From Hydractinia symbiolongicarpus (Eukaryota; Cnidaria; Hydrozoa; Anthoathecata; Hydractiniidae), in contig NC_079887.1 of NCBI RefSeq assembly GCF_029227915.1, forward strand, positions 21,387,650 through 21,451,649: a stretch of 64,000 nt of DNA, in the 5' to 3' direction. Shown here piece after piece: positions 1 through 64,000 of the stretch (position 1 is its first letter; each line of letters opens with the position of its first letter). A program made the position numbers and the translations under genes. The notes beneath the pieces are model-generated. The model was not told the origin of the DNA and did no database searches. It saw only the letters and a list, made by a program, of their open reading frames with translations.

Positions 1-562
1 AAATTACGGCCTTACGTAATTTAGTAATTGTTGAGTATTAGAAATAATCGTGTAGCAAAACGATTTACTCAAGCGGTTTAACACAAGGCGAATTAGGAAC
101 TGCATAATTAAGTGAATAGAATCAATATATGAGGCATGCATAGCGGTCATCTATGTTTGTTAGCAAGCAAAATATTATACTCAACAGCGCAATTAAAAAG
201 AAATTTTTATATCAGTTTACATATCTCTGAGGTCTTTTTTAACAATCTGAGTAGATGTTCTTTCCCTTCCAGTTATAAATCATGAATCTTAAAGGCATTT
301 GTTTTTTATAACAAGTGAAAACGTTTTCCGTGTTTTGATTTAAAGTTTGAGTATTTAATTTTTGAATAATTACTCTAGGCGCTCATTTGGACTGAAAATT
401 ATTTGGTCACGGAGTGCTTTTTATAAATTTGGAGAATGAGCATTCTTATACACTTGAGATAAGTATCCAAAAAGTACGTATCATATTAACAACATCAAAA
501 CCAGTACACAGGATGCATCATGCCTGACCCCCAATGCAGGGTCTTAAAATCAATCAGTTAAA
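1..562. other. AT-rich DNA, no gene seen
   Basis: No open frame or recognisable repeat was found. The first 35 bases resemble positions 62286-62310, where a GGCCTTACGTA motif is followed by TTTAGTAATT. That suggests the window opens in the same palindromic repeat family that lies beside the DIRS element at the far end. Confidence 0.4.
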
Positions 563-564
563 GT

Positions 565-1742
565 GCAAGGGGTTTCTGTTCAGAATCAGTAAACACCTGT
601 TTTCGTCGACTTGGTTTCCCTAATAAGCCTTTACGTTCCCTATTAAAATCCCTAACTTTTACCTCCATGAGTGCTTCTTTTTACATCTGGATGTCTCGAA
701 ATTCTACCACTTGGGTTGAGACTAAAAAGGCCCCAATAATTCCTGAAGTTTCTTCTGTTTCAAATATGGAATGTAAGAAATCAAAAACCCCTGAGAAATC
801 TTCCGCAAATCACACAAAACTTGCTACAAGGTCTTCCAAAACAACAGTCGCATTGCCATCTAACCCTGATTTTAGGAATAGCGGTCTAAAAAACTTGGGA
901 AACACATGTTATGCAAACTCCATCTTACAATGTTTTTATAACCTTCCAAAAGTTAAAGAAGCCATTTCTGTCAGAAAAACAACCTCAAAGTTAGGCGAAG
1001 CATTTGTAGGTGTTCTTTAAAGTTTTGCTGTTTCTAGAAGTCCAATGATCCCTCCCATTTTTTGCGTGCTATGAAACATCATATCTCAGCTGCGAAGGGA
1101 AGTGCATTTAATATTTTTGCTCAGCACGACCTACCCGAGGTTCTTGAATATCTCCTACCTGGTCTGTCATTAGACTTTCCATTTCTTGGAAGTCTTTTTA
1201 GTATTAACATCAAGACATCAACCACTTATAATTCGTGTCATATTACCAGCTCCTCAGAAGTTATAGCACCATGCATCCAACTTTCTCTGCACCCTACGTT
1301 ACAATCTTCCTTAGATAATTTCTTTGAAAGCAAGGAGTTGTCAGACAGCAATGCCTACTTCTGCCATGTTTGCAACGCTCATCAAACGGCTCTAGTTGAA
1401 AAAGAGGTAGTGTCGTGCGGTTCCCATCTCATTTTACAGCTAAAACGTTTTGCCAGTGTCAACGGCCTTGTGTCAAAAATTGCCTCTTGTATTACTGCTT
1501 ACCCTGCTACCCTTTCCATACCTTTAACCGTAGATAGAAAAGTGAAATTTCGTTAAAATTTTCAATTAAGGGCTATTATCAACAATTGCGGCAACTTATA
1601 TAATGGTCACTACACAACCATAGCCTTCGACCAAATGGTTCACAGGTGGATACATTGCAACGATAGAGCAGTAATTTTCTGTGATGACCGCCTTATTAAC
1701 AGTCACGAGTCATATGTTTTCTTTTTAGAAGAGCTGAGGTAA
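565..1742 (+). pseudogene. Endonuclease tail fused to USP (C19) deubiquitinase, copy A
   Basis: A single frame (565-1020) carries the end of the restriction-like endonuclease domain (FYIWMSRNS at about 680) and, roughly 60 residues later, a C19 Cys box, LGNTCYANSILQ at about 895-930. This is the only copy here where the link between the two domains is uninterrupted. A stop at 1018 and a frameshift follow. The body resumes with the QHDLPEVLEYLL box, CxxC pairs of the USP zinc ribbon (YFCHVC) and ILQLKRF. A nonsense change (CGT AAA to CGT TAA, stop at 1554-1556) precedes the His box GNLYNGHYTT and HCNDRAV. Family knowledge: USPs cleave ubiquitin from proteins, and the Cys, His and Asn/Asp residues form the active site. 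All three are present, but the frame is broken, so this copy is dead. A free-standing host USP pseudogene is unlikely because the endonuclease tail is in frame. Confidence 0.85.
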
Positions 1743-1765
1743 GAATATTTTAACCAGAATGAGTC

Positions 1766-1930
1766 AGCAAGGGGGGCTTGGCTACACTCAGTCTTGTCTT
1801 TGGAGAGTGACGACTCCACTTTACCCCAGTCAAAAATAAAAACAAAATCAAATAAAAATTAAGTTAGGAAGGGGTTTGATCACACATGATCTTGTCTTTG
1901 GAGAGTAACGACTCCACTTATTACCTGAGT
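1766..1930 (+). promoter_or_regulatory. Structured 3' UTR units A1 and A2
   Basis: Two tandem units (1766-1830 and 1865-1930) share AGGGG, the linker CTTGTCTTTGG and a closing ACCCC or ACCTG. By eye each folds as an outer stem enclosing two hairpins: GGCT/AGTC and GAGT-GACG-ACTC in A1; GATCA/TGATC and GAGT-AACG-ACTC in A2. A role in recognition by the reverse transcriptase is inference. Confidence 0.6.
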
Positions 1931-2251
1931 TAAAAACAAAGAATAGCACAGTTGAACAGAAAGTGGTCAAAGTTTACTTTAGGAAGATAGGGATGTCTAG
2001 TTTCTGCTGATGACCGTCCGCGGACCTCTTTGAGGTGACCCAGCTGGACATCCAGGGTACTTAGGTTCAGAAATATGGGTCGAAATCTACCTGCCCTTGG
2101 TTAAAGTTCTGTTCATCTTTTCAAATGTGTTGTGTACTTTTTATTTTTTTAAATTTTTTAATTAATTCCTTGTAAAAAGGGAGAATTGTGCTTTTAGAGG
2201 CATTTTCTCTAGAGGAGTACAACCTCTTATTGTTGCTTCTTATTCTTATTG

Positions 2252-4964: not shown

Positions 4965-4965
4965 A

Positions 4966-5190
4966 ATTTAAATTTTAAGACTTAACTGGTCGGGTTTATC
5001 ATTGTGCGTGCACTTTGTAATTTTCATTCTTACCACTGCTGTGTGTTTTACATACAGTTTGCCGTTATTCACGAGTTTGTTCACTCGCCGCTTTCCTAGA
5101 AAGCAATTATTAGAAGCTTAGCAAGGGGGCTTTGCAATTGCCTTGTCTTTGGGTGTAACGACCTCACTTATAACATCGTCTTGTTTTTAT
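4966..5190 (+). mobile_element. 3' terminus plus 3' UTR fragment of further retrotransposon copies
   Basis: 4966-5024 matches the very 3' end of copies C and E (AAGACYTAAC...ATCATTG, a hairpin, then TTTGTAA), with the terminal hairpin changed to GTG-CGTG-CAC. Directly after it, 5030-5190 matches the 3' UTR of copy B2 and contains one structured unit at 5119-5174. It abuts the reverse-transcriptase remnant of B1, giving a head-to-tail cluster of truncated copies. Confidence 0.65.
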
Positions 5191-5345
5191 CAGGCATAAA
5201 TGTTATTTTGGAGTACACGCTGGCAACATCTGTGTCATGCTAATCACCTCTATAGAGTATCCTTACCTGTAATAAGGGCTTTTATGGACGACATAAACAT
5301 CATGTCTTCGTCTGTTGCTGGAATTCCTTAACAGGTGCACCACAG

Positions 5346-7540
5346 CTCTAAGTTAAGCCAATATGACATTTCGCGCTGAAAAATCCCGTAGTTTTGTGAT
5401 CATCAAGGGAAGATCTATCAATAGCACCCCTTTTAGTGTATTTAGCCCTGAAAACGACATTTCTCACAGTATATCCCATCTATTCATGCCTTGCCAGTGC
5501 GATTTTTAGGCCGGATTATTGATTGTTCTATCTCAGACAAGAAGTCCATCAACGAATTAGAGAGAAAAGCTGATAGAAGGGCTTGGTGTCATTAATAAGT
5601 CCTTATACACTGGAGCAAAAAAAACCTTGGATCTTGCAACATCTTTTGATCCCGCGAATTCAGTGGCCACTGTTAATATACTAGGTTTCGATGTCTGTTG
5701 CTTGCAACTAGAGCAAAAGGTTTCAGTGTTCATACGAAAATGGCTGAACTTGCACCGTTCCATCACAAACATCTCCCTATATGCTGACTCCTCTCCTTGC
5801 CCTCTGCCCATTAAGAGCCTCAGTTCTATTTTAAAATCCGCAAAAATTAGTGGTCACCTACTTTTGCGACACTCCAAAGATCCAATTCTGTCAACACTCA
5901 ATCCATCCTTAAAGGCAGGTTCTTGGAAGGTGAGCGATGCAGTTAAAATAGCTGAGGATCAATTAAAGTAAAAAACCATAAGGGGTCCTGTACAGCGTGG
6001 ACGAACCGGTCTTGGCAATTGTAAAGTGGAAGTAATACCACCAAAAACCACTCACAAGTACAGAAAGGTAATCGCAAAAACATCAGCTGAGATTGACGAG
6101 GAAAGCTATCTATCTAAGGCATTGCAACTTCAGGTGCGGGGCCAATGGACAAGATGGGAGAACTACGTAAAGTTTGATCTTTCATATAAGAACATCCTAG
6201 CAACTCCTATTCTCTTATCTTTCTGCCTGCAATCCACTTACGATGTTCTGCCCTCACCAAGTAACTTGAGGAGGTGAAAAATAAATACAGAACCATCTTG
6301 TTTCTGCGCACATACTTGGTGCTTGTAAAACTGCTCTTTCCCAGGGAAGATATACCTTTAGACACGATTCTGTACTTACCCATTTGGTAGAAACTTTGAA
6401 AAAGTTCATTTTTGAGCTTTCTTCTGAACCTCTGAGCTTAAACCGGACCTTGTGCTATATTCAAATGACCTTAAGCGTGTTATTATTGTGGAACTCACTT
6501 GCCCATGTGAGGAAAACATGAATGCTAGGCACTCCACCAAAGTTGCCAAGTATTTCTGTTTAATGAATGTGATTATGGTTAATGGCTTGCAAGTTGATTT
6601 CTTGGCCGTGGAAGTAGGAGCAAGAGGGTATTGTGCAAGAACCACCACTGCCTTTTTAAAAAGAATGGGTTTCACCAACAAACTTGCTTATTCCACTGCA
6701 AATGATCTCGTTAAAGTCAGTATGAGGTCTTCTTTTTGTATCTGGCTGGCACGTGAATCCAATGTTTGGTGAACTGACTCCTTAATGCAATTACCCAAAT
6801 CCAAGCAGGCTTTGCCTAATGTGGAGACTAAGTGTGTTTCATCTCGCCAAAAGGGGGTTAGCCAAAATAAAAATGACACTCAACCATTTTGTGTATAAAA
6901 AAACATCGGTTTTTTAAACGAAGGCAACACTTGTTACGCCAACGCCATTTTGCAAGTATTAAGTACCATTCCAACACGCAAAGTGGGTCAGAATCGTTTC
7001 ATTTGTCACCTATTGCGAGGTCTATTTCGCTTAACATGGCGAAACTGACGCAATCATTGTCACCTGTTGACTCTTCGAATTTTCTCTGGGCCCTTAAACG
7101 TCAAATGCTCTGATGGGAAAGTGGACTTCCAATTTAATAATAAGCAAGATGTAGCAGAGATTATGTTTGTGGTTTTGGACGCACTTAAGGGATTTTTCCC
7201 GATTGCTGCAGATAAAATCTCAACTGAAATCTCAATGTCTGTAAACTGAAATACCTGCGTGTGCACCTCGGTAAATGTCGCAATGCAGGACATTTTAACA
7301 CTGCCAATGACATATAACATCCAGTCTTGTGTCAGCAAATTTTTAGAACCAGAAATTCTAAACAATGGAAACAAGTGGTTTTGTCCGCAATGCTTTGCAC
7401 ATAGAGAGAGTACTAGAGAAACGCAAATCAGCAGAAGTGAAATCTTATTGCGGCATGTTAAAAAGGTTTTTAAAACATGGTGAACATCTGGTGAAACACA
7501 ACAGAGTTGTTGAATGTGTTTCTTTACGTGACTCTCCTGC
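5346..7540 (+). pseudogene. RT-RLE-USP retrotransposon, copy B1 (decayed)
   Basis: Colinear with copy E but full of stops. Order: RT C-terminal region (MTFRAEKSRSFVI at about 5361, compare MSFRPSKSRSIVI in copy E); thumb and linker (5627-5971, with KISGHLLLR); central region (6026-6277, ending YDVLPSPSNL); endonuclease core (6452-6772, with VELTCPCEEN, TKVAKY and EVGARGYC); then a USP domain with Cys box NEGNTCYANAILQ at about 6917, KQDVAEIM, WFCPQC and LKRF near 7470. The USP breaks off at about 7540 and continues into a second endonuclease tail (copy B2). The RT catalytic core is absent. It diverges from A/C/E throughout, so it is an older or separate subfamily. Confidence 0.75.
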
Positions 7541-8672
7541 AACTACCTTTCGTCAGTCTGTTTCTTCGTGTTTGAAAAGACTGGGATTGGACCGCAGAAA
7601 AACTTTTCAAGCTGCTCGTCAACTTGGTGACATGTGCATGAAAGCTTCTTTCTGTATTTGGGTCGCTAGAAATACAAAGGTATGGAATGAACACAGCCAC
7701 ATCCCTATTTCAACCAGCTATTCTATACCCACTCCTCTAATGCCAAAGGGCAAACAACAGTCACCAAGCCCAATACACCTGTTAAAGCAGGCCCAGACCC
7801 ACCTACCCACAGCAAAGTAATTCACGCAGGATTAATAAATAAAGGAAACACCTGTTACGCCAATTCCATCCTGCAAGCATTAACTGCAATCCCATCATTT
7901 TGGTTACATTGTGCTTCGGAATCTTCTCTGGTTTCTCCTCTATTGAAGTCATGCTGTCCCAGTCTTCCACAGCTGTTGACCCTTCCGCCTTCTTAAGAGC
8001 CTTGCAGCGTGAGATGTCCAGCATTAGGAAGACCCCATTCAACATTAAGCAGGACGTGCCAGAAATACTGCTTCATCTCTTGGGTGAATTAACAGACCCT
8101 TCGGTTATCGCAAATAATATCATCACCAACATTATAACCACTACGACGTCATGTAATGCATGCTTCTTATCAACTAGCAGGGAGGAAAGTATGCCTATTG
8201 TGCCACTCCCTATCTCAAACAGCGTTCAGGTTCAATTAATTGTTTTTTGCAGCCCGAAAATTTGTCTGGAAATGACAGGTGGCTTTGCCCGCAGTGCTCT
8301 TCTTATCAAGACAGTACAAGCGAAACGGTTTTCACCGAGTGCGGAGACATTCTAATTATCCAACTGAAGAGGTTTACGTTTCTTGATGGAAGAACCCTAA
8401 AAAATAACAAGTTTGTTACCTGCCTTGCTTCACATGACGACATTTTTAGAGTTCGCTCTCAGCCAACGGATGACATTCCATGTAACAACAAATATTCGTT
8501 AGCTCCCACTATTAATCATTCGTTCACCCTAGGAGCTGGTAACTATTGGGCATTCATTAAAGATCGCAGCTGTGGCTCATGGTTAAGATGTGACGATAAA
8601 GCAGTTGTTAGAGTTGCACCATCCGATTTCAATAACTCTTCTGTGTATGTGTTGTTTTTTGTGAAAATGTAA
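7541..8672 (+). pseudogene. RT-RLE-USP retrotransposon, copy B2 (endonuclease tail + USP)
   Basis: Begins with the endonuclease C-terminus (SVSSCLKRLGL, then FCIWVARNTKVW), a Pro/Gln/Ser-rich linker, and a second USP domain. The Cys box NKGNTCYANSILQAL lies at about 7838 and KQDVPEILLHLLGEL at about 8047. Another frame (8247-8672) carries WLCPQC, IIQLKRFTF and the C-terminal box ending VYVLFFVKM with stop at 8670-8672. In the His box the usual GHY reads GNY, so the catalytic His is replaced by Asn in this copy; copy D has GHY at the same position. At least two frameshifts separate the pieces. Confidence 0.75.
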
Positions 8673-9415
8673 AAGTGGTCTGATTAACATTCACATAAAA
8701 GTTGGAGGGTTATCTTTCCCTAGCGGTTTTGTATTACCCCGGCTGTTACTGTCACAAGCAGTCTACCGTGAACCTAGAGTTTGCTCACTCTTCACCCTCT
8801 TATAGAGTAATCATAAGAAGCATAGCAAGGGGGTTCGACTATGTCTTGTCTTTGGGTGCGACGACCCCACTTTTTACCCCACTCCAATAGGGAGGCTAAG
8901 TTTGCGCACTTGATCTACAGGATTAACGATCCTGCTGTACCCATAGTTATTCTTGTAAGAAGCTCTGCAAGGGGGTATGAAATTTCTCTTTCATTTCTTC
9001 GTAGTTTTACGCCCACGCATATCACCCCAGTAACTTCAGGCTGGTCCTGACCAAGGCTGGTCCTAAGCATCAATCACCCGTGTAAGGCTGAGTGTTGAGA
9101 TCCCGTAACACGTGTAAAGCTACAGCCAGGTTCACAACTCCTGGCGCATAGGTAGTTGTTTGCCCCCTTCTCATAGTTTTTATTTATTTGTATATATATA
9201 CGTTTTATGTCAATATATGTTGTTCTTGTTTTTTTGTTTTGTTGTTGCAATATTTGTATTGTCCAGAGGATTGCTTTTTCAATTAACTTGGTTGTACAGA
9301 CCATCCTTGTAAAAGGGAGATCTTGCTTTGCATAGGGATCTTAAGAGGGTTTAACCTCTACCACTTAAAATAAGAGTCATTAGACTAGTCGAATCACTAC
9401 AGCTTGCTGTTTTGT
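8673..9415 (+). promoter_or_regulatory. 3' UTR of copy B2, with structured units and terminal hairpin
   Basis: Contains CCTAGCGGTTTT...ACCCCGGCTGTTA, also in copy D. Structured unit B1 (8823-8884) has hairpins GAC-TAT-GTC and GGGT-GCGACG-ACCC. Unit B2 (8965-9030) has hairpins ATGAAA/TTTCAT and CGTA-GTTT-TACG. Then come a CCAGGTTCACAACTCCTGG hairpin near 9128, the AGAGG...CCTCT hairpin near 9342-9358 and the terminal hairpin ACAG-CTTG-CTGT at 9399-9410. The element ends near 9415. Confidence 0.65.
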
Positions 9416-9424
9416 TATGTCATA

Positions 9425-10616
9425 ATCAAAGTGCAGGACCTATATAAAATAAATATTAAATCGGTTTGCCTAAAAATGGTGATAAATAAGATTTCTCTTG
9501 ACGACCTGCTGAAAAGGAATTAAAGTACAATGCAATACCACATTCATCACGAAAAGCTTTACAAGCTGTCCGTATTAATCTCACTATAGCGGCTTCTTGT
9601 GTATTAAATGCAATTATTTCCCGGGTAAAAGGGCGGCATCAATATTTCTGAGAATCGCGCAATGTGATTGGTTAGAACATAGCAACCGTGTTTAAAGCTT
9701 AAATACGGTAGCATTGAATGTAAATAAACACGGGAAAAAAGTAAACAAAACGCGAAAAATAAGTGAAACTGACTTTTTTGTTTTCAAGAATTCGATGTTG
9801 CAGCTACAATAAAAACCTGTGATTCGATTTTAGTTGGAATCTACGATCCATATGTGAATAGTTTTTATAAAGACATGGTTTCTATGTCCTGCTTATAATG
9901 TTATATTTTTTGTCGTAAAATGCAGTACCCGGATAAAAATCCATATAATAACTGTTTATTTCGGGCAATACCTTCGAATATTAACCCCTGTCACGTATTG
10001 CCCTCACAAGCTCCGGTATTGCCCTCATAAACAGTTATTATAGGGTTAATATCGTTTCATATGTGTCACATATAATTATCTTTTCAAACGTATTTAATAC
10101 TTGCAATAGATGCAGCTTACAAAAGAATTTACCCATATCTGCAATATCATTTCTTTGTTTTATAGACAACATTTTCCAATTTTGAAACACCTTTGGTAGC
10201 AACTCCTATCTTACCGTTTTCAATTGAGCATTAAATAATTGGATTTATTGGACCAAGGTCAGACACAGGTCTTTTTATTGTTAATTCTAATTTAGCAAAA
10301 TTATAATTGGTATTTTTCTCATCCAACACATCACAAATATCATCTATTGTGCCTGTAAAAATTAACACAGTAGCTGCGTCTCTACTGGCTACCTCAGACA
10401 ATCCAAAATATAAAGTTTTGCCTTCACTAGTTGTTGTATGAGAATTTTGGTAATGCTTGTGATACTTACTAATACCATCACCATGAAAACAATCACCCAG
10501 TGTTTTTCCATCATTTTCATTGCTTCTGCGACTTGAAACTGAGATAAAATTAAGGCTTTTTGCATTATACGAGATTTTACCCCAGTTGATGGCAAGCGAC
10601 CAATTTTTTTTGCGGA
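9425..10616 (-). pseudogene. Repetitive transposon-type ORF, family X, copy 1
   Basis: About 1.2 kb, strongly similar to 27190-28262. The minus strand gives broken coding stretches such as LYFGLSEVASRDAATVL and KYHKHYQNSHTTT, which I associate with a repetitive ORF family of cnidarian and fish genomes whose superfamily I cannot name. Frames are interrupted by stops and no start is visible. A 97 bp hairpin insertion at 9945-10041 is missing from the other copy. Confidence 0.45.
9945..10041. repeat. Small hairpin insertion
   Basis: Outer arms ATAATAACTGTTTAT (9945-9959) and ATAAACAGTTATTAT (10027-10041) are perfect reverse complements. Inside them GGGCAATACC (9963-9972) pairs with GGTATTGCCC (10015-10024). 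The second family X copy has only the left arm sequence at the same place (about 27735), so the rest was gained here or lost there. Confidence 0.75.
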
Positions 10617-13585: not shown

Positions 13586-13649
13586 CCAAGTGTTCCAATA
13601 ACTACCTTAATGACGTCGTTTACTTTTTTTATACTAACTAAACTTCATT

Positions 13650-20256: not shown

Positions 20257-20997
20257 GGATGGGTTGGTAGTAGTAGCCAGAAGTAATATTTGCTTGGAGC
20301 AGGAAGATCTAAAGTCTCCACCTTAGTAAAGGGAAAATTGTGTCACACGGAGGACACTTAGTGTAATGTGTTACAAACCCAGTGGAGCGCTTATTGCATT
20401 AAAGATACAGTATATTTTTCATAAACCAACATTCACACCAGTTATGATGAAGCCAATTGATACTTTTGCAAAGCAAATACAGTTGTTTAGCATTTTTCTT
20501 TTTGCATAAAAAGTTCCTGTGGATATTCAAAAATTAAACTTTCTAACCACTTTGAATTTATACGGCATAAAATTTAGCATATGTATTTCGCATTGTGCTT
20601 TAGAAGCACATTCCCACTTTCTCTGAGGTGGATAAGGTATTTGGTCCTAAACCTGGGACACATTTTATCTGTTTGAATTATTTTTAATCCTGAGAATCAT
20701 TTTGAATGTTTTCTGTACCCATGGCTTGTCAAAGTTGACATGCTTGTCAAGAATAGTTTATCAGCGTCTCTAAAAATGGCTAAATTCAGGAACTCAGAAA
20801 TTATGATAGTAGTACAAAAATGTTTTGGTTTCATTTCATCAAACTGGTCTAAAAACATATAATACTAGTTTTAAATCATTATTTCATTTTTTACTGAAGT
20901 AATATGACTTTTACTTAGTATAGCTTTTCACACCGCTGACACCAAAATGGCTGCAGGGACTAATCGGTTTGAAATTAATATATATTATTCTATAACA
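20257..20997. other. AT-rich DNA, no gene seen
   Basis: Lies between the right end of the 5.4 kb transposon and the duplicated block. No frame or repeat of note. Confidence 0.4.
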
Positions 20998-22072
20998 GAC
21001 ATCAACCACTTGTAATTCATGTCATATTACCAGCTCCTCAGAAGTTATAGCACCATGCATCCAGCTTTCTCTGCACCCTACGTTACAATCTTCCTTAGAT
21101 AATTTCTTTGAAAGCGAGGAGTTGTCAGACAGCAATGCCTACTTCGGCCATGTTTGCAACGCTCATCAAACTGCTCTAGTCGAAAAAGAGGTAGTGTCGT
21201 GCGGTTCCCATCTCATTTTACAGCTAAAACGTTTTGCCAGTGCCAACGGCCTTGTGTCAAAAATTGCCTCTTGTATTACTGCTTACCCTGCTACCCTTTC
21301 CATACCTTTAACCGTAGATAGAGAAGTGAAATTTCGTAAAAATTTTCAATTAAGGGCTATTATAAACACTTGCGGCAACTTATATAATCGTTACTACACA
21401 ACTATAGCCTTCGACCAAATGGTACACAGGTGGATACATTGCAACGATAGAGCAGTAATTTTCTGTGATGACCGCCTTATTAACAGTCACGAGTCATATG
21501 TTTTCTTTTTAGAAGAGCTGAGGTAAAAATATTTTAACCAGAATGTGTCAGCAAGGGGGGCTTGACTACACTCAGTCTTGTCTTTGGAGAGTGACGACTC
21601 CATTTATTACCCCAGTCAAAAATAAAAACAAATCAAATAAAAATTAAGTTGGGAAGGAGTTTGATCACACATGATCTTGTCTTTGGAGAGTAACGACTCC
21701 ACTTATTACCTGAGTTAAAAACAAAGAATAGCACAGTTGAACAGAAAGTGGTCAAAGTTTACTTTAGGAAGATAGGGATGTCTAGTTTCTGCTGATGACC
21801 GTCCGCGGACCTCTTTGAGGTGACCCACCTGGACACCTTAGGTTTAGAAATATGGGTCGAAATCTACCTGCCCTTGGTTAAAGTTCTGTTCATCTTTTCA
21901 AATGTGTTGTGTACTTTTTATTTTTTTATATTTTTTAATTTCTTGTAAAAAGGGAGAATTGTGCTTTTAGAGGCATTTTCTCTAGAGGAGTACAACCTCT
22001 AGCTCATTTCCAAAGACCTAACAGGTTGAGTTCATCATTGCGGTGGCTTGCCACCTCTTTGTAAATTACTTT
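20998..22072 (+). pseudogene. RT-RLE-USP retrotransposon, copy C (USP C-terminal half + 3' UTR)
   Basis: The frame starts inside the USP zinc region (TSTTCNSCHITSS equivalent at 21001), passes through HVCNAHQTA, ILQLKRF, and the His/Asn region to the stop at 21524-21526. It is open except near the start, and lacks the nonsense change seen at 1554 in copy A. In the His box NNGHYTT is changed to YNRYYTT, so the catalytic His is lost (His to Tyr, with Gly to Arg). The 5' edge could be either a retrotransposition truncation or the duplication breakpoint. Confidence 0.85.
21549..22055 (+). promoter_or_regulatory. Copy C 3' UTR: structured units and terminal hairpin
   Basis: Units at 21549-21616 (hairpins GACT/AGTC and GAGT-GACG-ACTC) and 21650-21715 (GATCA/TGATC and GAGT-AACG-ACTC). 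A region of small hairpins (GTCC/GGAC, ACCTC/GAGGT) lies at 21790-21840. The terminal hairpin GGTGG-CTTG-CCACC is at 22042-22055 and the element ends near 22072 at TTTGTAAATTAC. Confidence 0.65.
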
Positions 22073-22079
22073 CTTATTG

Positions 22080-22682: not shown

Positions 22683-23007
22683 GTTGTTGTAGGAGTTGCT
22701 TGGCTGATAAAAGAAATAGGGATTATTTTTCTTCCTGGTTTGTTCATGTCATGCATTTGGATAGAACTTCTATATCATGCTCATTTTTCTTCCTAGTTTG
22801 AGTGGTTCTTCGCTATCCAATACCTCAAAGAAATTCACAAATTTTTCAGCATTGCACCTGATTTCTGCCACATTTTTGTCAATGTATTTGTCTACATTTT
22901 TCACAAACTTCTAAATACATGAAGCAATCTGATATGGCATAAGGGAATCGTTTTCAAACATTAATGAGATAGGCGATACCAAGCTCAAAACTTTCGAGGT
23001 GACTACA

Positions 23008-25640: not shown

Positions 25641-26249
25641 TTCCTTCATTATTATTTAAACCTATTTTTTTTACGAGACTTTTATTTTGATCATGTGACG
25701 TCATAAAAAAGATGTAAATTCTAAGAGATATACTAATTGTTGAAAAAATAATACTTCTATTTTATCACATGACATACATTCACCATCTGAAAATTGTGAA
25801 ATTATTAAAACACAGAAATGTATATCGTATGAGAACATCCTTAAACAGCTGATAGTAACAGTTCACAAATTTTTGTGTGTTGCAATAAACCATCTATAAT
25901 ACCAATTGACTCCAGAAGAAAATGAAAACATTTAAAATATTTCCAATGTATATTTAAACACAAAAATGTTTCTAAAACATTTTAATGTGTGTAATAGACC
26001 AGTAATTGAAACAAAAAAATAAAGTTAAGTTCCAAGGCTTTACTGAAAAATAGGGTATCATAAAAATATCCTATTAACTTCTCAGGAACTTCTCTAAACA
26101 TGGTAAATTTTTTCGATTTTTCTGCGCTGTTAACTTTCTAATTCTTGCATCCTTGATTCTTAACATCATTTCTCAACTAGTTTACTAGTTCACTCTCATC
26201 TCGTGTTTGTAGATTTTAATTGATGTCCAGCAGGTAAATAACTTATTAT
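25641..26249. other. AT-rich DNA, no gene seen
   Basis: Begins where the duplicated block ends. No domain, exon or repeat of note. Confidence 0.4.
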
Positions 26250-28600: not shown

Positions 28601-28759
28601 AATATTATACTCTTTAAACATTTACATACAGTTATTTTTGCAACAGATACATATTCAGACATTATTGTATCATGAACGTATACTTAGAATATATTCTTTT
28701 TAGATTTTTTGATTATCCGTAATTCACAACACATATCTATTCATGTTGAAAAAACCTAC

Positions 28760-28926
28760 CACACTCTTGCAGCATGTATTCTTCTGGGAAAGAATAAATA
28801 TGGTTGGGTATCCCATCAGATAGTTCAGTGTTGCTTTGGTGCCTTATGCGGTGACTATTCCATGTGTCTTGAAAGATGCAGAGTTCCCTTTCCATAACAA
28901 GGATCATTATGTAAACAAGAAGCATT
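28760..28926 (-). pseudogene. Isolated exon of the DDE-integrase-like gene
   Basis: Flanked by a TTTTGTTAG acceptor and a GAGTGTG/GTAGGT donor, the same phase and junction as exon 3 of the 57355-59056 gene. Shared residues include TWNSHRIR, DGIPNHIYSFP and LQECG. No neighbouring exons remain here. Confidence 0.65.
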
Positions 28927-28929
28927 CTA

Positions 28930-29730
28930 ACAAAATAAAATGGAATTAAGTCTTTTTAATTCTTTTTAAAAAGTAGTGAAAATATATATTTCATACCTAT
29001 CAAGTTCACTGTGTGGGTCATAGTAGCTTAATTCGGGGCAGGAGGAGTCACTTAAGGGAACAAACGTAAAAAAAACTAAGAAGACAATGGTTTTTTGAAA
29101 AAAAATTAATACAGGCTTAAACAATGATAAAAAACCTTAAAACAAACCAAAAAAAATTTACAGAAAAAAATCAACATGATATACTGCAATAGTGTGCTAA
29201 CTCATCTTACCGCCAAAGTTGGGGCAAAATGGGACACGATAGAAATCCAGGAACAAAGGAGAAAATATCGAGTTTTTAAACTTCCATTAGATGTCTGACA
29301 AAAGTAAAATTTGTACCACTACTTAGTAGCAGCAAGCTAGCAGGTTAAATGAAAATAAAATATAGCTATAAAAATCCTAACCGTATATAAATCGTGTATA
29401 AAATAATCAAAATAAAAAACAAAGAAATACAATTAATCACAGAAGTCACAAATAGTTTTATCTGAAGAACAACATAGTTCATGAAGCCATGCTGAACACT
29501 TTATACACTGTGTCCAGTTTTCTCCTGGCAATGACTCGTGCCACCAATCACCGCAAACATTCGCAATATTCTACAACTGGTGGTGTCGTTTTTGTTTTAG
29601 TCGTTTTTTTCTTTTTAATGTTTCTTTTTTCGCGTTTGGTTGTTTTTTCGAATTTGATGGTTTCTTTGTCTCAGTCTCAGATTTCTCCAAAGATAACTTG
29701 TATGGTGATCCTGTAATAATTTCTGATTCT
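28930..29730. other. AT-rich DNA, no gene seen
   Basis: Simple A- and T-rich tracts. The plus-strand frame 29489-29716 is hydrophobic noise opposite a lysine-rich minus-strand stretch. Confidence 0.35.
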
Positions 29731-30270
29731 TCACTTCGCTTCTTTTTTTTTTTCAACAATATCGGGAACTTTTAAAATTTCCCTAAAACTCACCGGCGTT
29801 GAATGAACAATCATGTCAATGGCATCAACACTGGATCCAGCTTGCGATGAAGATGCAATAGGCTCTTCTGTAATGCTGCTAATATCTGGGGTAGCAAGTG
29901 GTTCTCTCGGGTCTGACAAAAATTCTTTTTCTGGCAAAATTGATGCATCGTAAGGAACAATTCCAGTGCATCGAAAACCGGATATCGCGTTTTCAATTGT
30001 GGCTGCCTTAATTGTGGCTGTCTGTAAGTCCAATATTTTTTTTATGGCTTCTGTGCCCATCTAAAATTAAAATGACACGATCATCCTTTGTCGGCTTTGT
30101 CATTGTCGATAATGTCTGCCGGCGTTTAAGAAAACCTGACACAAAATCACGTCCTGCCATTTGATGAACTTTGTTAAAAGGGTGCTTAATTTTATTCCTT
30201 TTACAATATTCATATATAACCCTTCTTAGTTCATTTATGGATAATCCATAAAAAGAATTGTCTGCACAGA
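29731..30270 (-). pseudogene. pogo/Tigger-like transposase fragments (N- and C-terminal)
   Basis: 30270-30100 repeats the N-terminal segment seen at 14140-14000 (FYGLSINELRR, AGRDFVSGFLKRRQ). It is joined to a C-terminal frame, 30060-29731, with ENAISGFRCTGIVPYDASIL, a pattern typical of the tail of this transposase family (GF-x-x-TGI-P), followed by a Ser/Pro-rich end. The DDE core between them is missing. Confidence 0.7.
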
Positions 30271-30274
30271 TAGG

Positions 30275-32090
30275 ACGGCTGAAGCTGAAATGAAGGTTAG
30301 ATCCGTATTAGGTTCACCTCAACATGGTAAAAATGGCCTAGGTATGCATCCCAACCCTATAAAGTACCCAATGTCAAGGGATGTTACCGTTACAGAAGAT
30401 TGGTAACAGAACCTGCTAGAGACATCGATGCAGAAGACCATATAAGTAAGGCTATGTAATTACAAGTGCAAGGGTACTGGACCAGATGGAAGAATTACAT
30501 TAAAAACGATCTCTCCTAGAAATCCTTGCTGGGCATGCCCCCAAACTTGCTTGCTTTTTGTTTAGGCACCACCTACGATGTTCTCCCATCACCAAGTAAT
30601 TTGAAGAGGTGGCGTTTGCGCACTGAAACCTCCTGTTTCTTATGCGGTAAGCAAGTGTGCACCAAACTGCCCTTACACAGGGTCGGATTACATTTCTCCA
30701 CGATTCTGTTTTGCGTCTACTTTTAGAGCTTTCTGAGTTTATTACTTCTATCTCTTCCCCGGTAAAGCAACTAAATAACATCAAATTTGTTAAAGCAGGT
30801 GTTCGTCCCCCTAGTAAAAAGTCTAAGCCCATAGGTCTCTTACATCTTGCCTCCGATTGGTTGCTTCTTTCTGACTTAAAAGGTGGATTCGTTTTCCCTG
30901 GTCATATCGCAATAACATCGCTTAGACCAGATCTTGTCATGTACTCTAACAACAGCAAACGTGTAATTTTGATAGAGCTCACCTGTCCATGTGAGGAAAA
31001 TATGGAAATCTGGCATTAAAAGAAGCTTTCGAAGTATTTACCCTTAGTTGAAATTATTAAACAGAACGGATGGAATGTAGATATTTTCGCAATTGAAGTA
31101 GGTGCTCGAGGTTATTGCTCCCGATGAGTGTCACTGTGTTTAAAAAGATTAGGGTTGAACAACAACAAAACTTTCCGAGCTGCGTGTAACCTTGCTGATG
31201 TATGTATGAAATCCTCTTTTTGTATTTGGATTGCAAGAAATTCAAGTGAATGGAATCAAGATGGACTTATCTCCATATCCTCCACACTAACGGGGCCTGA
31301 TTCTCAAATGCCAAAAACAAAAACCTTGCCACAGAAACAAAACCGAACTTACTGTAAGAGCAACCAGTCTGAAAAGACTTTCCCTGATTTGCCTAACCAC
31401 TAGACTGCTTCAATAACTTTACATGCAGGGCTTATAAATAAAAGTAATACGTGCTACGCCAATTCTATTTTGCAAGCTTTAACTGTAACTCCTACACTTT
31501 GGTCACAATGTGCATCTGAGTCCTCTTATGTTTCTTCTCTCTCCGGTTATTGCAAGCAATAGCATTACTAATATTTTAACAACGACCATGTCATGCAATC
31601 GTGTCTCTTTTCATCTAGTAGGGAGAAGAGTATGACTATTGTGCCACTTGCTACCTCAAGTAGCGTTGCAAACTCCTTTCACTTGTTTTTCCAACCCGAA
31701 GAGCTGACTGGCAATGACATATGGCTTTATCCACAGTGTTCTTCCCTCCAGAGAGACAGCTTTTAGTCGGTGTGGGGATTTGTTGATTTTCCAACTAAAA
31801 AGATTTACCTGTGTCGAGGGAAGATCAGTAAAAAACAACCAATTGTTAATTGTATCTCTCATTCTGGCAACATATTGGAGGTACCTTCACATCCTGCAGA
31901 TGATGTTTCTTTTACCAACAAATACAAACTAGTGGCAACTATAAATCATTCAGGCAGCAGGTCATTATTGGGCATTTATTAAAGATCGGAATGTAGACGA
32001 GTGGTTGAAATGCGATGACGGGGCAGTAGTTAAGGTTTAGCCGTCTGATATAACTAACTAGTGTATGTGTTGTTCTTTCTCAAGCTGTGA
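30275..32090 (+). pseudogene. RT-RLE-USP retrotransposon, copy D
   Basis: Starts downstream of the RT, in the linker (GLGMHPNP, SPSNLKRW region near 30590). The endonuclease core follows (30657-31019: RPDLVMYS, IELTCPCEEN), then IEVGARGYC and FCIWIARNS (31085-31250), a Pro/Gln/Lys-rich linker (to 31403), and a USP Cys box NKSNTCYANSILQAL at about 31436. The USP body is shortened around 31540. The C-terminal part carries INHSG...AGHYWAFIKD and KCDDGAVV up to about 32090, with the catalytic His present. Stops and frameshifts occur throughout (for example 31017 and 32038). Closest to copy B2. Confidence 0.75.
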
Positions 32091-32660
32091 AAACGCAAGT
32101 TTTGCTTTGTAAAAGGGGGAGGATTTCTTTTCCTAGCGGTTTTATTACCCCGGCTGTTATTTTCACCGGCAGCCTTCCGTAATTCAGGTGTTCGCTCACT
32201 CTCCACTCTCTTACAGAGTAATTAAAAGAAGCTAAGCAAGGGGGTTTGACAATCTGTCTTGTCTTTGGGTGTGACGGCCCCACTTTTAACCCCGGTCCAT
32301 TAGGGAGGCCAAGTTTGCTCACTTTGTCTACAAGGTTAACGATCTTGATGTACCCACAGTTATTGTTATAAGAAGCTCTGCAAGGGGTTTGATTTACGCC
32401 CACTCATTTTACCCCAGTAACTTCAGGCTGGTCCCAAGCGTCAATCACCTGTGTAAGGCTCAGTGTTGGGATCCCGTAACACATGTGGAAAGCTACGGCC
32501 AGGTTCACAAGTCCTGGCGCATGGGTGGTTGTCTGCTCTTATTTATAGTTTTATATTTATAGTTTGATATTTATTTGTTTCTTTCTATCTCGTATAGCAA
32601 TTTGTAACTGTCAGTAGGTGTTTGTGATGTAATGTTTATAGAGGGTCTATAGAGGCATCT
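32091..32660 (+). promoter_or_regulatory. Copy D 3' UTR
   Basis: Shares CCTAGCGGTTTT and ACCCCGGCTGTTA with copy B2. Structured unit D1 (32234-32294) has hairpins GACA-ATC-TGTC and GGGT-GTGACG-GCCC within GGGG/CCCC. Unit D2 (32377-32417) is shortened. The CCAGGTTCACAAGTCCTGG hairpin is at about 32504. The terminal hairpin seen in B, C and E is not found. Confidence 0.6.
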
Positions 32661-33085
32661 TAAATAAACAAACAAATAAGAAATAAGAGCCACATATTAG
32701 CAGCTACATAGTAAGAGGTCACAGGCCTTGGTGGTGTATATATATTGGAAATGAAAAGGAGCTCATAACAGTCAGGTGGCTATACACGTAGCCAAACCAG
32801 GTAAACTTATCAAATTTTCTTGAACAGTTCGCATCAAACGCAGACTTAATAAAGTAGTTTGCTAATTTAATAAACAAAATTTCTTGGTACATGTTGGCTA
32901 GTAGGTATTAGCTACCTAACCCAGCCTTTCTTTAGTGACTGAACTAGGTAAACTACAGTGTAAAATGTAAGCATGAGAAGAGCAGATATTCACTAATTTT
33001 TATTCATTGTGTGACCCATCTTACCCCATGTACCCCTTTGGAGAAAACCCTAAATTCTTTTCATATTGGAAAAAGTTTGACATTT
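32655..33085. repeat. Repeat shared with 14400-14836
   Basis: Second copy of the pogo-associated non-coding segment. It follows directly on the 3' UTR of copy D and ends at the position where the 5.4 kb transposon sits in the other copy. Confidence 0.85.
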
Positions 33086-33519
33086 TGTGTTGATATGTTT
33101 AGGTATAGCTAGGAGTAAAGTTTCTAAAACATATAGCTATGCTGTGGTTACTACAGTATTTAAGTTGTATAGATGAATTTCCTAACATGTGTTTCATATA
33201 ACAAAAATAAAAAAATAGTTTAAAAATTACGGTACATTTTTTTTTTCTGTGTAATGTCTCTATCGTTGGTTACAGTAAAGTTTCAGCTGTTGATTAAGAG
33301 ATGATGTAACTTAAACAATATCCCTTTAGATAACTATTTTACTGAATCAATCTCGGCCAAACAAGAGATTTTAAAATCCGAATCGTCCTACCCCGCCGAC
33401 CCGTCTTGCTTTTTTTCTTTGAGATAGGCTAATTGAGATTTGAAATAAATTTCCAACTCTTCATGCAGTTCCCGTCACCATCTCTCGATCTAATAGACAA
33501 CGCGGAAGAATTAAAGAAA
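33086..33519. other. AT-rich DNA, no gene seen
   Basis: No frame or repeat of note. Confidence 0.35.
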
Positions 33520-38658: not shown

Positions 38659-39545
38659 GGTGATGCGGTTTCGTCATAATGCGGTTTCGTCATTATGCGG
38701 TTTCATCATTATGCGGTTTCGTCATTATACGGTTTCATCATTATGCGATTTTGTCTTTATGCAAGTTTTGTGCATTTTTCTTAAATGCTCTACTGGGTTA
38801 AGTATTTCATTCGAGACCACTGGCACTGCGAGCTCCCCCTCTTCTTCTGGAGGTAACCAACATATTCCTTTCTTCCTGGGGAGAACAAAACCTAGCACTA
38901 TTTTGATCAGCATTTAATGAGAGAAAGCTGTTTGTTAACGCTGTATTATGACTTTCAAAGAGAAAGGAGAGAAAGGGGCGGAAAAAGCGCCTAAATACGA
39001 AACCGCATAATGACGAATCCGCATAACTGAATGAAGAAACCTCATAACCAAATTACCTAACTGCATAATCAATCGACGTAACCACATAACCAAACAACAT
39101 ATTCTGTTGGGCGCCCCAGCCAGGTACACAAGTCCTGGCGCACAGATTGTTGCCTGCTTTAGTTTACATTTGTTCCCTTAGGAATTATTCTAACATTTAT
39201 CCGTTTAAGGATAGTGGACTTTTTATGTTCTTTTTTATTAGTGTTTTGTGCTTTACCACTGTTTTACGCGTCCTGTTTGATGGTCAATGTTTTTTTTCTG
39301 AGAGAATCCTTGTTAAAAGGGAGGGTTTTGCTATTATGCAGAATCTTCAGAGAGTTACAACCTCTATAATATCTCACCAGCCGCCATTAGACAAGCTATA
39401 TCACAACAGCCAGCTGTTTTGACACTTTATCATAACCGAACTAAGCAACCACACAACCGAATCACAACATTGCATAACTGATTAGGGCAATCACATAACC
39501 AAATATTAGAATCGGATAACCAAATAAAAAGATCTCAGAGTTTGC
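38659..39545. repeat. Minisatellite arrays, partly inverted
   Basis: About six units of roughly 16 bp (ATGCGGTTTCGTCATT) at 38659-38760. Related but degenerate units in the opposite orientation (AAACCGCATAATGACG, CATAACCAAAT) lie at 38990-39090 and resume at 39425-39545. The inverted arms could fold back. The gap between the second and third blocks is filled by the retrotransposon tail at 39105-39422. Confidence 0.75.
39105..39422 (+). mobile_element. Retrotransposon 3' UTR fragment inside the minisatellite
   Basis: Matches the end of the B/D-type 3' UTR: CAGGTACACAAGTCCTGGCGCA, CCTTGTTAAAAGGGAGGG, an AGAG...CTCT hairpin and the terminal hairpin ACAG-CCAG-CTGT (39406-39417). An extreme 5' truncation that landed in repeat DNA. 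Confidence 0.65.
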
Positions 39546-40059: not shown

Positions 40060-40071
40060 TTAGATGATACA

Positions 40072-41317
40072 ATGGCCAAGGTAAGGTTACTTCGCAGAGG
40101 TGAGCGGAATAGGAAAAAACATTGGAAAATCTCGAATGCACGCCAGGCTTTCTCTAAGAATCCTTATCAGGCTGGGAAAAATATTTTAGATCCTAAATGT
40201 TCAATAAAACTTTAAGTTATTTTTCAAGCTTGTCTTTAAACAAGCTTGAAAAATGTCTTTTATTCCTGTGAAATGGAGAATTGCATCAGAAGTTTACATA
40301 CCTAAAAACAACACACCTTGTCCATCCAACATAAAGGATTTTCGCCCCACAGCTCTTCTGAATGTTGAAGGAAAGCTCTTTTTTAGTTTGATTTCCAAGC
40401 GGTTAGAATCGCATATTATAAAGAAAAACAAGTTCATTAATACTTCCATTCAAAAATATTGTATGGAAAAAGTTCCGCGTTGCTGGGAACACATGTCTCT
40501 TGTTTGGTCCACACTTAAGAATGCGAAGGCACAACATACTTCACTTTCAGCCATATGGCTTGATATTGCTAATGCGTACCCTTCAGTTCCGCACAAGCTG
40601 ATTTTTATGGCTCTCAGACGCTATTGTGTACCAGAATTCTGGATAGGGCTCATACAGCTATACTACGACAGCCTGTGGAGTAAGTCTTTTTCGGCTTCTG
40701 CTCCATCCAGTTGGCATCAACACTGTAGGGGAATTTTTATCGGCTGTACACTTTCCATTATACTATTTCTTGCAGCTATAAACGTTATTATTGAGTATGT
40801 GTGTGTTACCCCCAGCCTTATTGATACTAAAGGTAATAAAAACAAAATCCCCGACCAACCCCCAATAAAAGATTTTATGGATGATATATTCTTAATGTCC
40901 ACGTCAATTCCAAGTACTCAAAATTTATTAAACAGGTGTACAACAACTCTTGATTGGATAGGCATGTCGTTTAGGCCTTCTAAATCACGCAGCATTGTTA
41001 TTGATAAGGGAAAAGTCGTCCAAAGTTCACCGTTTACAGTTGGCAGCGAAAAAATTCCATCCATTTATTCTAATCCAATTAGGTTTTTAGGCAAAACCAT
41101 TAACTCATCCTTGTCTGATTCTGCTGCATTACAAGAATTTCTAAATGATGCCGAAGACAAACTTATGGCTATAGACAGGTCCTTTCATAAAGGGGTCCAT
41201 AAGGTTTGGTTTTTACACCATGTGGTAATTCCCAGAATCCGCTGGTCATTATTAATTTATGAAGTTTCTCTATCTACTATCACAAAACTAGAGCAAAGAT
41301 TTTCTTTTTTTCATTAG
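40072..41317 (+). pseudogene. Non-LTR reverse transcriptase, copy E
   Basis: The 40072-40215 frame (MAKVRLLRRGERNRKKHW, then FSKNPYQAGKNIL) matches the basic region that precedes RT domains in this kind of element. It stops at 40213-40215 before a 33 bp hairpin. The 40253 frame carries the RT: VYIPKN, FRPTALLNVEGKLFFSLI, first catalytic Asp in WLDIANAYPSVPH (residue about 104), GCTLSIILF (about 164), and the active-site motif FMDD (about 208-210; the common motif is YADD), then MSFRPSKSRS and a thumb with FLGKTI. Family knowledge: such RTs copy element RNA at a nicked chromosomal site. The frame shifts in a T-run near 41310 and continues in the next entry. Confidence 0.88.
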
Positions 41318-42545
41318 GAAATGGTTAAAACTACATCATTCAATTTCCAACATTTCCTTATATTTCTCGACATCGCCTTGTCCTCTTCCCCTGAAAAGTC
41401 TTGCATGTGTTCTTAAATCTGCCAAAATCAGTGGACATCTGTTACTAAGAGATTCTGTCGATCCTTGTGTGTCTAAGTACGTACCAGATTTAAAAGCTGG
41501 AAATTGGAAAGTTAGTGAGGCAGTTCTTTCGGCGGATAGTCAGCTCAATTTCAAAAGGATTTTAGGTTTGCATGAGACTGGTCGAGCTGGCTTAGGGCTC
41601 TTAGACCACAAAAGTATACCACCAAAAGGCACTTATGCTTACCGAAAGCTTGTTTCCAATATCATTGAAGAAAATGAAGAAGATATCTACCATGCCAGAG
41701 CTGTACAGTTGCATTTGCAAGGCAATTGGACAAAATGGTGCTCTTATGTGAAAAATGATTTGTCTTGGAGAAGAATTCTTTCACTGCCACAATGTCTAAC
41801 TTCTTTTTGTATAGGGGCAACCTACGACACCCTTCCCTCTCCAACCAATCTTGTGAGATGGGGAATTGAGAAAGACAAAAGTTGCATTCTGTGCAAGAAA
41901 CCATCCTCAAATGTCTCTCACATATTGGGTGCCTGTAGGACCTTCCTTACGCAGGGTAGATCCACATACCGTCATGACTCGGTTTTAATAGTTTTGGTTA
42001 AGGCATTAAAAGAGTTTTTGGTAACATATGAACCTCTTAAGGTTTCCAAGTTCAACAAAATTAATTTCATTCTGGCCGGTCAATCACCGTCTAAGAAGAG
42101 GCATACAAAGTGTCCAGGCCTTCTTCACCTTGCTTCCGATTGGAAAGTACTGTCAGATTTAGATTCCGTTTTAGTTGTTCCACCATACATTGCAATAACA
42201 CAACTACGCCCAGACGTGTTATTAATATCCAGTTCTTCCAAAACTGTAATTATGGTAGAACTGACTTGTCCATGTGAAGAGAACACGGAATATAGGCACA
42301 AACGAAAGCTTAACAAATATTCTTCACTTTGTTATGCTATGAAAAACAATGGATGGATCGTGCATTTCTTTGCCATTGAGGTGGGTGCAAGGGGTTTCTG
42401 TTCAGAATCAGTAAGGACCTGTTTCCGTCGCCTTGGTTTCCCTAACAAGCCTTTACGTTCCCTATTAAAATCCCTAACTTTTACCTCCATGAGTGCTTCT
42501 TTTTACATCTGGATGTCTCGAAATTCTACCACTTGGGTTGAGCCT
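41310..42545 (+). pseudogene. Thumb, CCHC knuckle and restriction-like endonuclease, copy E
   Basis: Open from the frameshift near 41310 to beyond 42545. It contains KISGHLLLRDSVDP, YDTLPSPTNLVRW, a zinc knuckle CILC...HILGAC (C-x2-C-x9-H-x4-C, about 41884-41937), then the nuclease motifs LRPDVL (Asp codon 42213-42215), VELTCPCEE (Glu codon 42258-42260) and RKLNKY, followed by EVGARGFC and FYIWMSRNS. Family knowledge: the PD...E...K restriction-like endonuclease cuts target DNA to prime reverse transcription. All three nuclease motifs look intact. A 22-25 bp deletion relative to copy A near 42547 shifts the frame, so the USP is not reached in frame. Confidence 0.85.
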
Positions 42546-42689
42546 GAATCATTCCTGAAGTTTCTTCTGTTACAAATATGGAATGTAAGAAATCAAATAC
42601 ACCTGAGAAATCTTCCGCAAGTCACACAAAACTTGTACAATCAAAAAACCCGAAAAACTTGCTACAAGGTCTTCCAACATAACAGTCGC

Positions 42690-43524
42690 ATTGCCATCTA
42701 ACCCTGATTTTAGGAATAGCGGTCTAAAAAACTTGGGAAACACATGTTATGCAAACTCCTGCAATCTTACAATGTTTTTATAACCTTCCAAAAGTTAAAG
42801 AAGCCATTTCTGTCAGCAAAACAACCTCAAAGTTTCCCATTTTTTGCGTGCTATGAAACATCATATCTCAGCTGCGAAGGGAAGTGCATTTAATATCTTT
42901 GCTCAGCACGACGTCCCCGAGGTTCTTGAATATCCCCTACCTGGTCTATCATTAGACTTTCCATTTCTTGGAAGTCGTTTTAGTATTGGCATCAAGACAT
43001 CAACCACTTGCAATTCATGTCATATTACCAGCTCCTTAGAAGTTATAGCACCACGCATCCAACTTTCTCTGCACCCTACGTTACAATCTTCCTTAGATAA
43101 TTTCTTTGAAAGCGAGGAGTTGTCAGACACCAATGCCTACTTCTGCCATGTTTGCAACGCTCATCAAACTGCTCTAGTTGAAAAAGAGGTAGTGTCGTGC
43201 GGTTACCATCTCATTTTACAGCTAAAACGTTTTGCCAGTGCCAACGGCCTTGTGTCAAAAATTACCTCTTGTATTACTGCTTACCCTGGTGCCCTTTCCA
43301 TACCTTTTACCGTAGATAGAGAAGTGAAATTTCGTAAAAATTTTCAATTAAGGGCTATTATCAACCATTGCGGCAACTTAAATAATGGTCACTACACAAC
43401 CATAGCCTTCGACCAAATGTTTAACAGGTGAATACATTGTAACGATAAAGCAATAATTTTCTGTGATGCCCGCCTTATTAACAGTCACGAGTCATATGTT
43501 TTCTTTCTGGAAGAGCTGAGATAA
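42690..43524 (+). pseudogene. USP (C19) deubiquitinase domain, copy E
   Basis: LKNLGNTCYANS (about 42724-42760) is followed by a 4-base insertion that breaks the Cys box frame. About 45 bases present in copy A are missing near 42835. From 42844 the body is open: MKHHISAAKG, AQHDVPEVLEY, CNSCHITSS and YFCHVCNAH (zinc ribbon), LILQLKRF, INHCGNLNNGHYTT (His box) and, after a nonsense TGG to TGA change at 43429-43431, HCNDKAI. The C-terminus ends VFFLEELR at the stop 43522-43524. The catalytic Cys, His and Asn/Asp positions are all kept, which argues that the ancestral domain was active. Confidence 0.88.
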
Positions 43525-44165
43525 GAATATTTTAACCACAATGAGTCAGCAAGGGGGCTTGACTACACTCAGTCTTGTCTTTGAAGAGTGACGACTCCAC
43601 TTATTACCCCAGTCAAAAATAAAAACAAAATCAAATAAAAATTAAGTTAGCAAGGGGGTTTGATCATGCTAGGTCTTGTCTTCGGAGAGTGACGACTCCA
43701 CTTATTACCCCAGTTAAAAAAAATATTAGCAGGGGGGTTTGATCACACATGATCTTGTCTTTGGAGAGTAACGACTCCACTTATTACCTGAGTTAAAAAC
43801 AATAGCACAGTTGAACAGAAAGTGGTCAAAGTTTACTTTAGGAAGATAGGGATGTCTAGTTTCTGCTGATGACCGTCCGCGGACCTCTTCGAGGTGACCC
43901 AGCTAGACATCCAGGGTACTTAGGTTCAGAAATATGGGTAGAAACCTACCTGCCCTTGGTTAAAGTTCTGTTCATCTTTTCAAATGTGTTGTGTCCTTTT
44001 TATTTTTTTTTATTTTTTTTTAATTAATTCCTTGTAAAAAGGGAGAATTGTTCTTTTTGAGGCATGTTCTCTAGAGGAGTACAACCTCTAGTTTATTTCC
44101 AAAGACCTAACAGGTTGAGTTCATCATTGCGGTGGCTTGCCACCTCTTTGTAAATTATTTTCTTT
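43525..44165 (+). promoter_or_regulatory. Copy E 3' UTR: three structured units and terminal hairpin
   Basis: Units at 43547-43613 (GACT/AGTC; GAGT-GACG-ACTC), 43648-43715 (GATC/GGTC; same second hairpin) and 43727-43795 (GATCA/TGATC; GAGT-AACG-ACTC), each inside a GGGG...ACCCC or ACCTG outer pairing with CTTGTCTTTG between the hairpins. Further on come small hairpins at 43870-43920, AGAGG...CCTCT near 44073-44091 and GGTGG-CTTG-CCACC at 44131-44144. Confidence 0.65.
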
Positions 44166-63951: not shown

Positions 63952-63982
63952 GTGGATTGCAGATAGACAACATGACTGCGTT
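63926..63982. repeat. Perfect 26 bp fold-back in the DIRS element
   Basis: AACGCAGTCATGTTGTCTAT and six more bases (63926-63951) are repeated as the reverse complement at 63957-63982 with a 5-base loop, GTGGA. Confidence 0.95.
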
Positions 63983-64000
63983 TTGATTTTTCAGAAAAGT

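Follow-up and report, generated by a model that had tools for sequence, protein, structure and literature searches.

The 64,000-nucleotide stretch of Hydractinia symbiolongicarpus DNA analysed here (NC_079887.1, positions 21,387,650 to 21,451,649, hereafter the window; GC about 35%) raises the question of why a retrotransposon without long terminal repeats (non-LTR) should end in a ubiquitin-specific protease (USP). Six copies of this element (A, B1, B2, C, D and E) lie in the window, all on the + strand, together with two fragments of its 3' untranslated region (UTR), B0 and F. Read from their sequences, they very probably descend from an element whose protein joined a reverse transcriptase (RT), a zinc knuckle, a restriction-like endonuclease (RLE) and a USP in that order, in a fusion kept by selection. 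Copy E, the longest of the six, carries all of these parts, and the anatomy described for it in the initial annotation (an RT with an FMDD active site, a CCHC knuckle, an RLE and a C19-type USP) is recovered by the profiles PF00078 and PF00443 and by motifs, at the following positions:

40250..41314, + strand: copy E reverse transcriptase (PF00078, RVT_1, E=5.2e-17), with FMDD at 40874
41883..41936, + strand: CCHC zinc knuckle of copy E (SCILCKKPSSNVSHILGAC, spacing CX2CX8HX4C), its first Cys at 41883
42207..42542, + strand: copy E RLE core and C-terminal end, with RPD at 42207, ELTCPCE at 42258, KLNKY at 42306, and GARG
42721..43521, + strand: copy E USP domain, with Cys at 42745, His at 43390 and Asn at 43441; the reading frame shifts near 42760 and 42833, and a stop lies at 43429
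43548..43797, + strand: copy E 3' UTR, in which a motif of about 65 nt occurs three times

The best PDB matches of the RT and RLE read-through (that is, sequence joined across frame changes and stops, with the frames set by protein-guided joining) are R2 proteins, chain 9nl3 giving E=1.1e-11 with the RT and linker matched. The order RT-linker-CCHC-RLE is the same in R2, whereas the aligned R2 chain has FADD where this element has FMDD. R2 is not known to carry a USP. The knuckle, seen in one copy since B1 and D are damaged there, fits with its CX2CX8HX4C spacing the range CX2-3CX7-8HX4C given for the knuckle that precedes the nuclease in long interspersed elements (LINEs) with an RLE (PMC5678591). 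The same source describes the RLE by a PD-(D/E) core with KX2KY (PMC5678591), and the motifs RPD/KPD, ELT and KX2KY (KLNKY, KVAKY, KLSKY) occur in all three copies that cover this region (E, B1 and D). Pfam gives no match for the RLE; the RLE profile matches two R2 chains of the PDB weakly (0.012 and 0.019, the sole hits up to E=10), with an independent E-value of only 0.31 for the best stretch. The RLE is thus identified by its motifs together with a weak profile match to R2 chains, and on these sequence grounds the element is filed as an RLE LINE, without clade assignment.

Copy E is not intact. Its 5' end is truncated near 40060, a piece between 40212 and 40250 seems to have been lost, and reading it through by frameshift-aware alignment requires five frame changes (near 41306, 42546, 42629, 42760 and 42833) and the crossing of one stop (43429), all of these places being approximate. 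In a joined read-through made of the RT and RLE of E and the linker and USP of A, RVT_1 (9.8e-16) is followed by PF00443 (3.2e-24, profile positions 2-253 of 254), the profile downstream of the RT and RLE that the initial annotation had proposed to look for. The copies and fragments were located by BLAST-type comparison and frameshift-aware alignment, which give approximate edges:

40060..44157, + strand: copy E, RT-RLE-USP and 3' UTR, 5'-truncated; both edges approximate
565..2247, + strand: copy A, RLE C-terminal end, linker, USP and an internally deleted 3' UTR; 3' edge approximate
562..1020, + strand: copy A junction open reading frame (ORF), which runs uninterrupted from the RLE tail across the linker into the USP Cys box; PF00443 1.8e-8 on its own
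883..1739, + strand: copy A USP domain, PF00443 5.9e-26 on the read-through, profile positions 2-253 of 254
5133..7429, + strand: copy B1, RT (FMDD at 5281), RLE 5729-6769, USP 6908-7429; 3' part lost
7554..9427, + strand: copy B2, RLE C-terminal end 7554-7691, USP 7829-8669, 3' UTR; 3' edge approximate
20996..22069, + strand: copy C, with the USP represented by its C-terminal part, 20996-21523 (PF00443 1e-8), and 3' UTR
30266..32654, + strand: copy D, linker/RLE 30275-31256, USP 31428 to about 32080, 3' UTR; edges approximate
5027..5174, + strand: B0, 3' UTR fragment of another copy, immediately 5' of B1
39110..39430, + strand: F, probably a piece of 3' UTR from a further copy, of B2/D type

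By its full-length UCH profile and catalytic triad, the terminal domain is assigned to the peptidase C19 USPs, with ubiquitin cleavage as its predicted activity. All four USP read-throughs (A, B2, D and B1) match PF00443 at E<=0.1, the best at 2.3e-29, and bare ORF pieces above the Pfam cut-off come from the A junction ORF, B2 (8178-8669, 2.6e-16), C and E (42799-43428, 1.3e-10); the A piece 1038-1553 falls below it (19 vs 23.9 bits), the USP of this copy having a frame change near 1015 and stops at 1035 and 1554. Copy E has the Cys box (42745), QHD (42904), QLKRF (43219), the His (43390), the Asn (43441) and two CxxC pairs. Among the five copies covering each position, the Cys box and the Asn/Asp are kept in five and the His in three, and the Cys/His/Asn-Asp triad is complete in A, D and E. 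These hallmarks (Cys box, QxD, CxxC pairs, QLKRF, His box and Asn/Asp) are shared with the cellular USPs USP8, USP15, USP4, USP2 and USP36, from which the present sequence differs in being a domain of about 280 residues that closes a retrotransposon protein. A profile built on the four read-throughs finds USP chains of the PDB at values up to 1e-30, USP8 and USP15 first.

Does the nuclease truly run on into the protease? In copy A the ORF 562-1020 crosses the junction in 152 codons with no stop, about 54 residues of linker separating the RLE tail from the Cys box, as the initial annotation had noticed. A tblastn scan with two RLE C-terminal queries located five RLE ends in the window (42207, 30924, 550, 6440 and 7554), the remaining matches having E above 3, and frameshift-aware alignment shows all five (E, D, A, B1 and B2) continuing into a USP; copy C starts inside the USP. 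The recurrence of this order in B1, B2 and D, claimed from the outset, thus holds, and no copy in the window ends at the nuclease, the arrangement that had been named as speaking against the fusion. Copies B1 and D keep RLE and Cys box in a single frame, with stops between them (D 31125 and 31401; B1 6770 and 6896) that do not align between the two copies, whereas B2 and E change frame within the linker. A fused domain is the simplest reading of these junction sequences. A chance junction, or a neighbouring host USP, was considered as a candidate and rejected, given five junctions across three lineages; on this point, too, the first reading of the locus was right.

The three lineages consist of A, C and E (87-94% DNA identity in blocks), of B2 and D (109 of 198 USP residues identical), and of B1. 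Between lineages (eight pairs, C left out), the USP shows saturated synonymous differences (pS 0.68-0.84) and nonsynonymous differences (pN) of 0.37-0.49, against a pN of 0.53-0.63 for the linkers, which span only 41-53 codons; in a query-anchored alignment that includes C and the B2-D pair, the corresponding pN values are 0.33-0.54 and 0.53-0.72. Aligned directly, B2 and D give a USP pN of 0.27, a pS of 0.70 and a linker pN of 0.46, and a frame-blind alignment of their USP DNA counts 44, 30 and 87 differences at codon positions 1, 2 and 3 (p=7e-8), a clear third-position excess. The same frame-blind test gives p=0.004 for the A-B2 USP pair. The conservation of the USP across three synonymously saturated lineages, together with the B2-D excess, indicates that the fusion predates the lineages and that the USP was kept by selection.

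Several observations weigh against this conclusion. The query-anchored pN ranges of USP and linker overlap at one edge, and the frame-blind test is not significant for the USPs of E-B2 (0.45), E-D (0.55) and E-B1 (0.06), pairs whose DNA alignment is poor. The B2-D linker also has a third-position excess (11/9/24, p=0.011); the linker is therefore constrained as well and offers no neutral control. Close pairs give relaxed USP dN/dS values of 0.74 (E-A), 0.62 (E-C) and 0.37 (A-C), in line with a divergence that arose in large part after the copies had been inactivated. The catalytic His is replaced in B2 (by Asn) and in C (by Tyr), and the frame changes in the E and B2 linkers leave room for a second ORF or for recoding. 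Finally, no copy within the window is intact: all those seen are dead and 5' truncated, lacking the N-termini in which RLE LINEs have a zinc finger/Myb DNA-binding part and some NeSL/Utopia members their Ulp1-like protease, and none yields a full-length protein.

The copies also bear on how the element moved. C and E end at a common 3' terminus, nearly reached by A, and the 5' ends vary from copy to copy; the match between B2 and D stops at 9205/32580, and the last part of D is different. The 3' UTR that the copies had been said to share is recognised by the motif of about 65 nt that follows the USP stop in A, C, E, B2 and D and recurs in fragment B0, the 3' end of B1 being lost (43548-43797, 1767-1932, 21551-21718, 8824-8889, 32236-32300 and 5120-5190). 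It comes in two to three units in A, C and E; its weakly supported RNA fold (14 pairs, 3 with double changes, -7.95 kcal/mol) is not claimed. In R2, reverse transcription starts at the 3' UTR, and by analogy the 3' UTR of this element may be its RT start site. The RT, the RLE and the shape of the copies argue for target-primed reverse transcription. Among possible targets, a scan of the window at Rfam gathering thresholds gave no match to rRNA, a difference from R2; nor was any U2 recognisable beside the copies in that scan (0 matches), which could miss a short U2 remnant. Elements of the NeSL/Utopia group insert into U2 snRNA (Utopia) or into spliced-leader genes. Fragment F adjoins short AACCGCATAAC-like repeats (39009-39095), and similar units are seen after 39430; a preference of the element for such repeats is possible on this sequence context.

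Two arms of a segmental duplication, 1213-14838 and 20997-33086, share long blocks of 91-97% identity and carry different insertions. Copies A and C were considered as independent insertions and rejected as such, because kilobases of flank are common to both: they represent a single insertion, later duplicated, C being the segmental duplicate of A. Copy D is present in one arm and absent from the other (30263/32655 vs 14146/14407), and B1 and B2 occur only in the arm without D, the other arm having there 1.6 kb without match to the B1/B2 region. These differences provide empty-site comparisons for D and for B1/B2; at the empty site of D, about 260 bp lie between the BLAST edges 14146 and 14407, which makes a target-site duplication unreadable. 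Between 5027 and 7554, a 3' UTR piece adjoins the B1 RT and the B1 USP stops near the start of the B2 RLE, a sequence arrangement that looks like recombination between neighbouring copies.

Elsewhere in the window, pieces of a tyrosine recombinase at 62397-63990 on the - strand (PF00589 4.3e-4, below cut-off; PF02899 1e-4) may be read as DIRS-like, and an alpha-kinase fragment lies at 56795-57172 on the + strand (PF02816 2.9e-19).

What would the protease do for the element? On balance we favour a lineage of RLE non-LTR retrotransposons that bear a USP at the C-terminus of their protein and use it to strip ubiquitin from their own ribonucleoprotein (RNP) or integration complex. The element protein would recognise its own RNA, the RLE would nick the target DNA and the RT would prime from the nick, while the C-terminal USP would remove ubiquitin in cis from the RT/RNP or the integration complex, so that the protein might be spared from ubiquitin-dependent destruction by the host until insertion is complete. 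Granted a working USP, we name self-protection as its main task only tentatively, the substrate being one that we infer.

Among the alternatives, it is possible, though rather unlikely, that the USP acts in trans at the target, stripping ubiquitin from histones or repair proteins and thus favouring second-strand synthesis and repair towards insertion. The position of the USP, C-terminal and adjoining an RLE that acts on target DNA, would suit such a role, and Ulp1 and OTU proteases in transposition have been proposed to act on DNA-repair factors (PMC2836005); however, there is no chromatin-reading domain among the Pfam matches, and the sequence names no substrate.

We consider it improbable that the USP is a second ORF, translated separately or reached by frameshift or readthrough, rather than a fused domain. 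The linker frame changes of E and B2 and the stops that interrupt the RLE-to-Cys-box stretch of D and B1 would be explained in this way, but copy A is open across the junction, B1 and D hold one frame, and their linker stops are unaligned.

Just as little credence goes to a protease of the element for polyprotein processing, or for another ubiquitin-like (Ubl) modifier such as SUMO, NEDD8 or an ISG15-like protein. Related elements do carry Ulp1-like proteases, and a cleavage target or a Ubl could lie in the unseen N-terminal part; the sequence, however, ranks nearest to deubiquitinating USPs, and USP18 comes below them in the PDB comparison. USP18 is a Ubl-specific member of the USP family.

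A USP acquired in a single capture and carried along as a functionless passenger would agree with the decay of the copies and the relaxed dN/dS of close pairs, but this reading is disfavoured and very improbable, the USP hallmarks having been kept over three synonymously saturated lineages and B2-D showing its third-position excess. That the USP comes from an adjoining host gene or a chance junction is scarcely credible, since nothing in the window was found in its favour, the five junctions lie at separate places in the same order, and the USP is followed in A, C, E, B2 and D by a shared 3' UTR motif.

How, then, does this protease compare with those of known systems? Nematode NeSL elements and Utopia-1_TSP carry N-terminal Ulp1-like proteases (PMC4640811), in agreement with the Ulp1 that the initial annotation named for NeSL and Utopia. 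Like the Hydractinia element, they are RLE LINEs bearing a cysteine protease from the ubiquitin/SUMO world (PMC4640811); theirs, however, is Ulp1-like and lies at the N-terminus, whereas the one here belongs to C19 (PF00443) and follows the RLE at the C-terminus. The OTU proteases that the initial annotation named for some other elements are described in DNA transposons: Ginger1 has a C-terminal OTU or Ulp1 domain and Helitrons have OTU, with suggested roles in DNA repair (PMC2836005), while in the parts seen we met no statement on OTU in LINEs. Ginger1 resembles the present element in placing its protease at the C-terminus of a transposition enzyme, but it is a DNA transposon with an integrase-like transposase, and its protease is OTU or Ulp1 and not C19 (PMC2836005). 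A C19 peptidase on a mobile-element enzyme is mentioned for Trichomonas vaginalis (XP_001314237.1, Transposase_11 plus Peptidase C19), a DNA transposase rather than a retrotransposon (PMC2836005). Ubiquitination-related extra domains are also mentioned for the planarian Burro elements (PMC6431247). Among the matches listed in a limited literature search conducted without Repbase, no precedent for a C19/USP in a non-LTR element appeared, and we claim no priority. Scans of viral_contigs confirmed no relative in any of four attempts (one using the RLE of E, two using alignments and one a DNA pattern of the 3' UTR), three of them returning 17, 11 and 25 pattern stretches, none confirmed, and another returning 0; among the prokaryotic genome_contigs, 76 pattern stretches likewise included no confirmed relative.

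It seems to us an evenly balanced proposition that these copies represent an ancient, previously undescribed clade of RLE LINEs, in which a USP-class deubiquitinase would be a standing part of the integration enzyme, countering host ubiquitin control of the RNP or, in the course of target-primed reverse transcription, editing target-site ubiquitin. The USP is directly testable through a single Cys mutant, in an element class (R2) that is being developed for RNA-templated gene insertion (PMC12222951). Proteases of the ubiquitin/SUMO world such as Ulp1 and OTU recur in mobile elements (PMC4640811, PMC2836005), and the presence of a further protease family at the opposite terminus of the protein in an RLE LINE hints that a need for ubiquitin control during transposition has been answered convergently.

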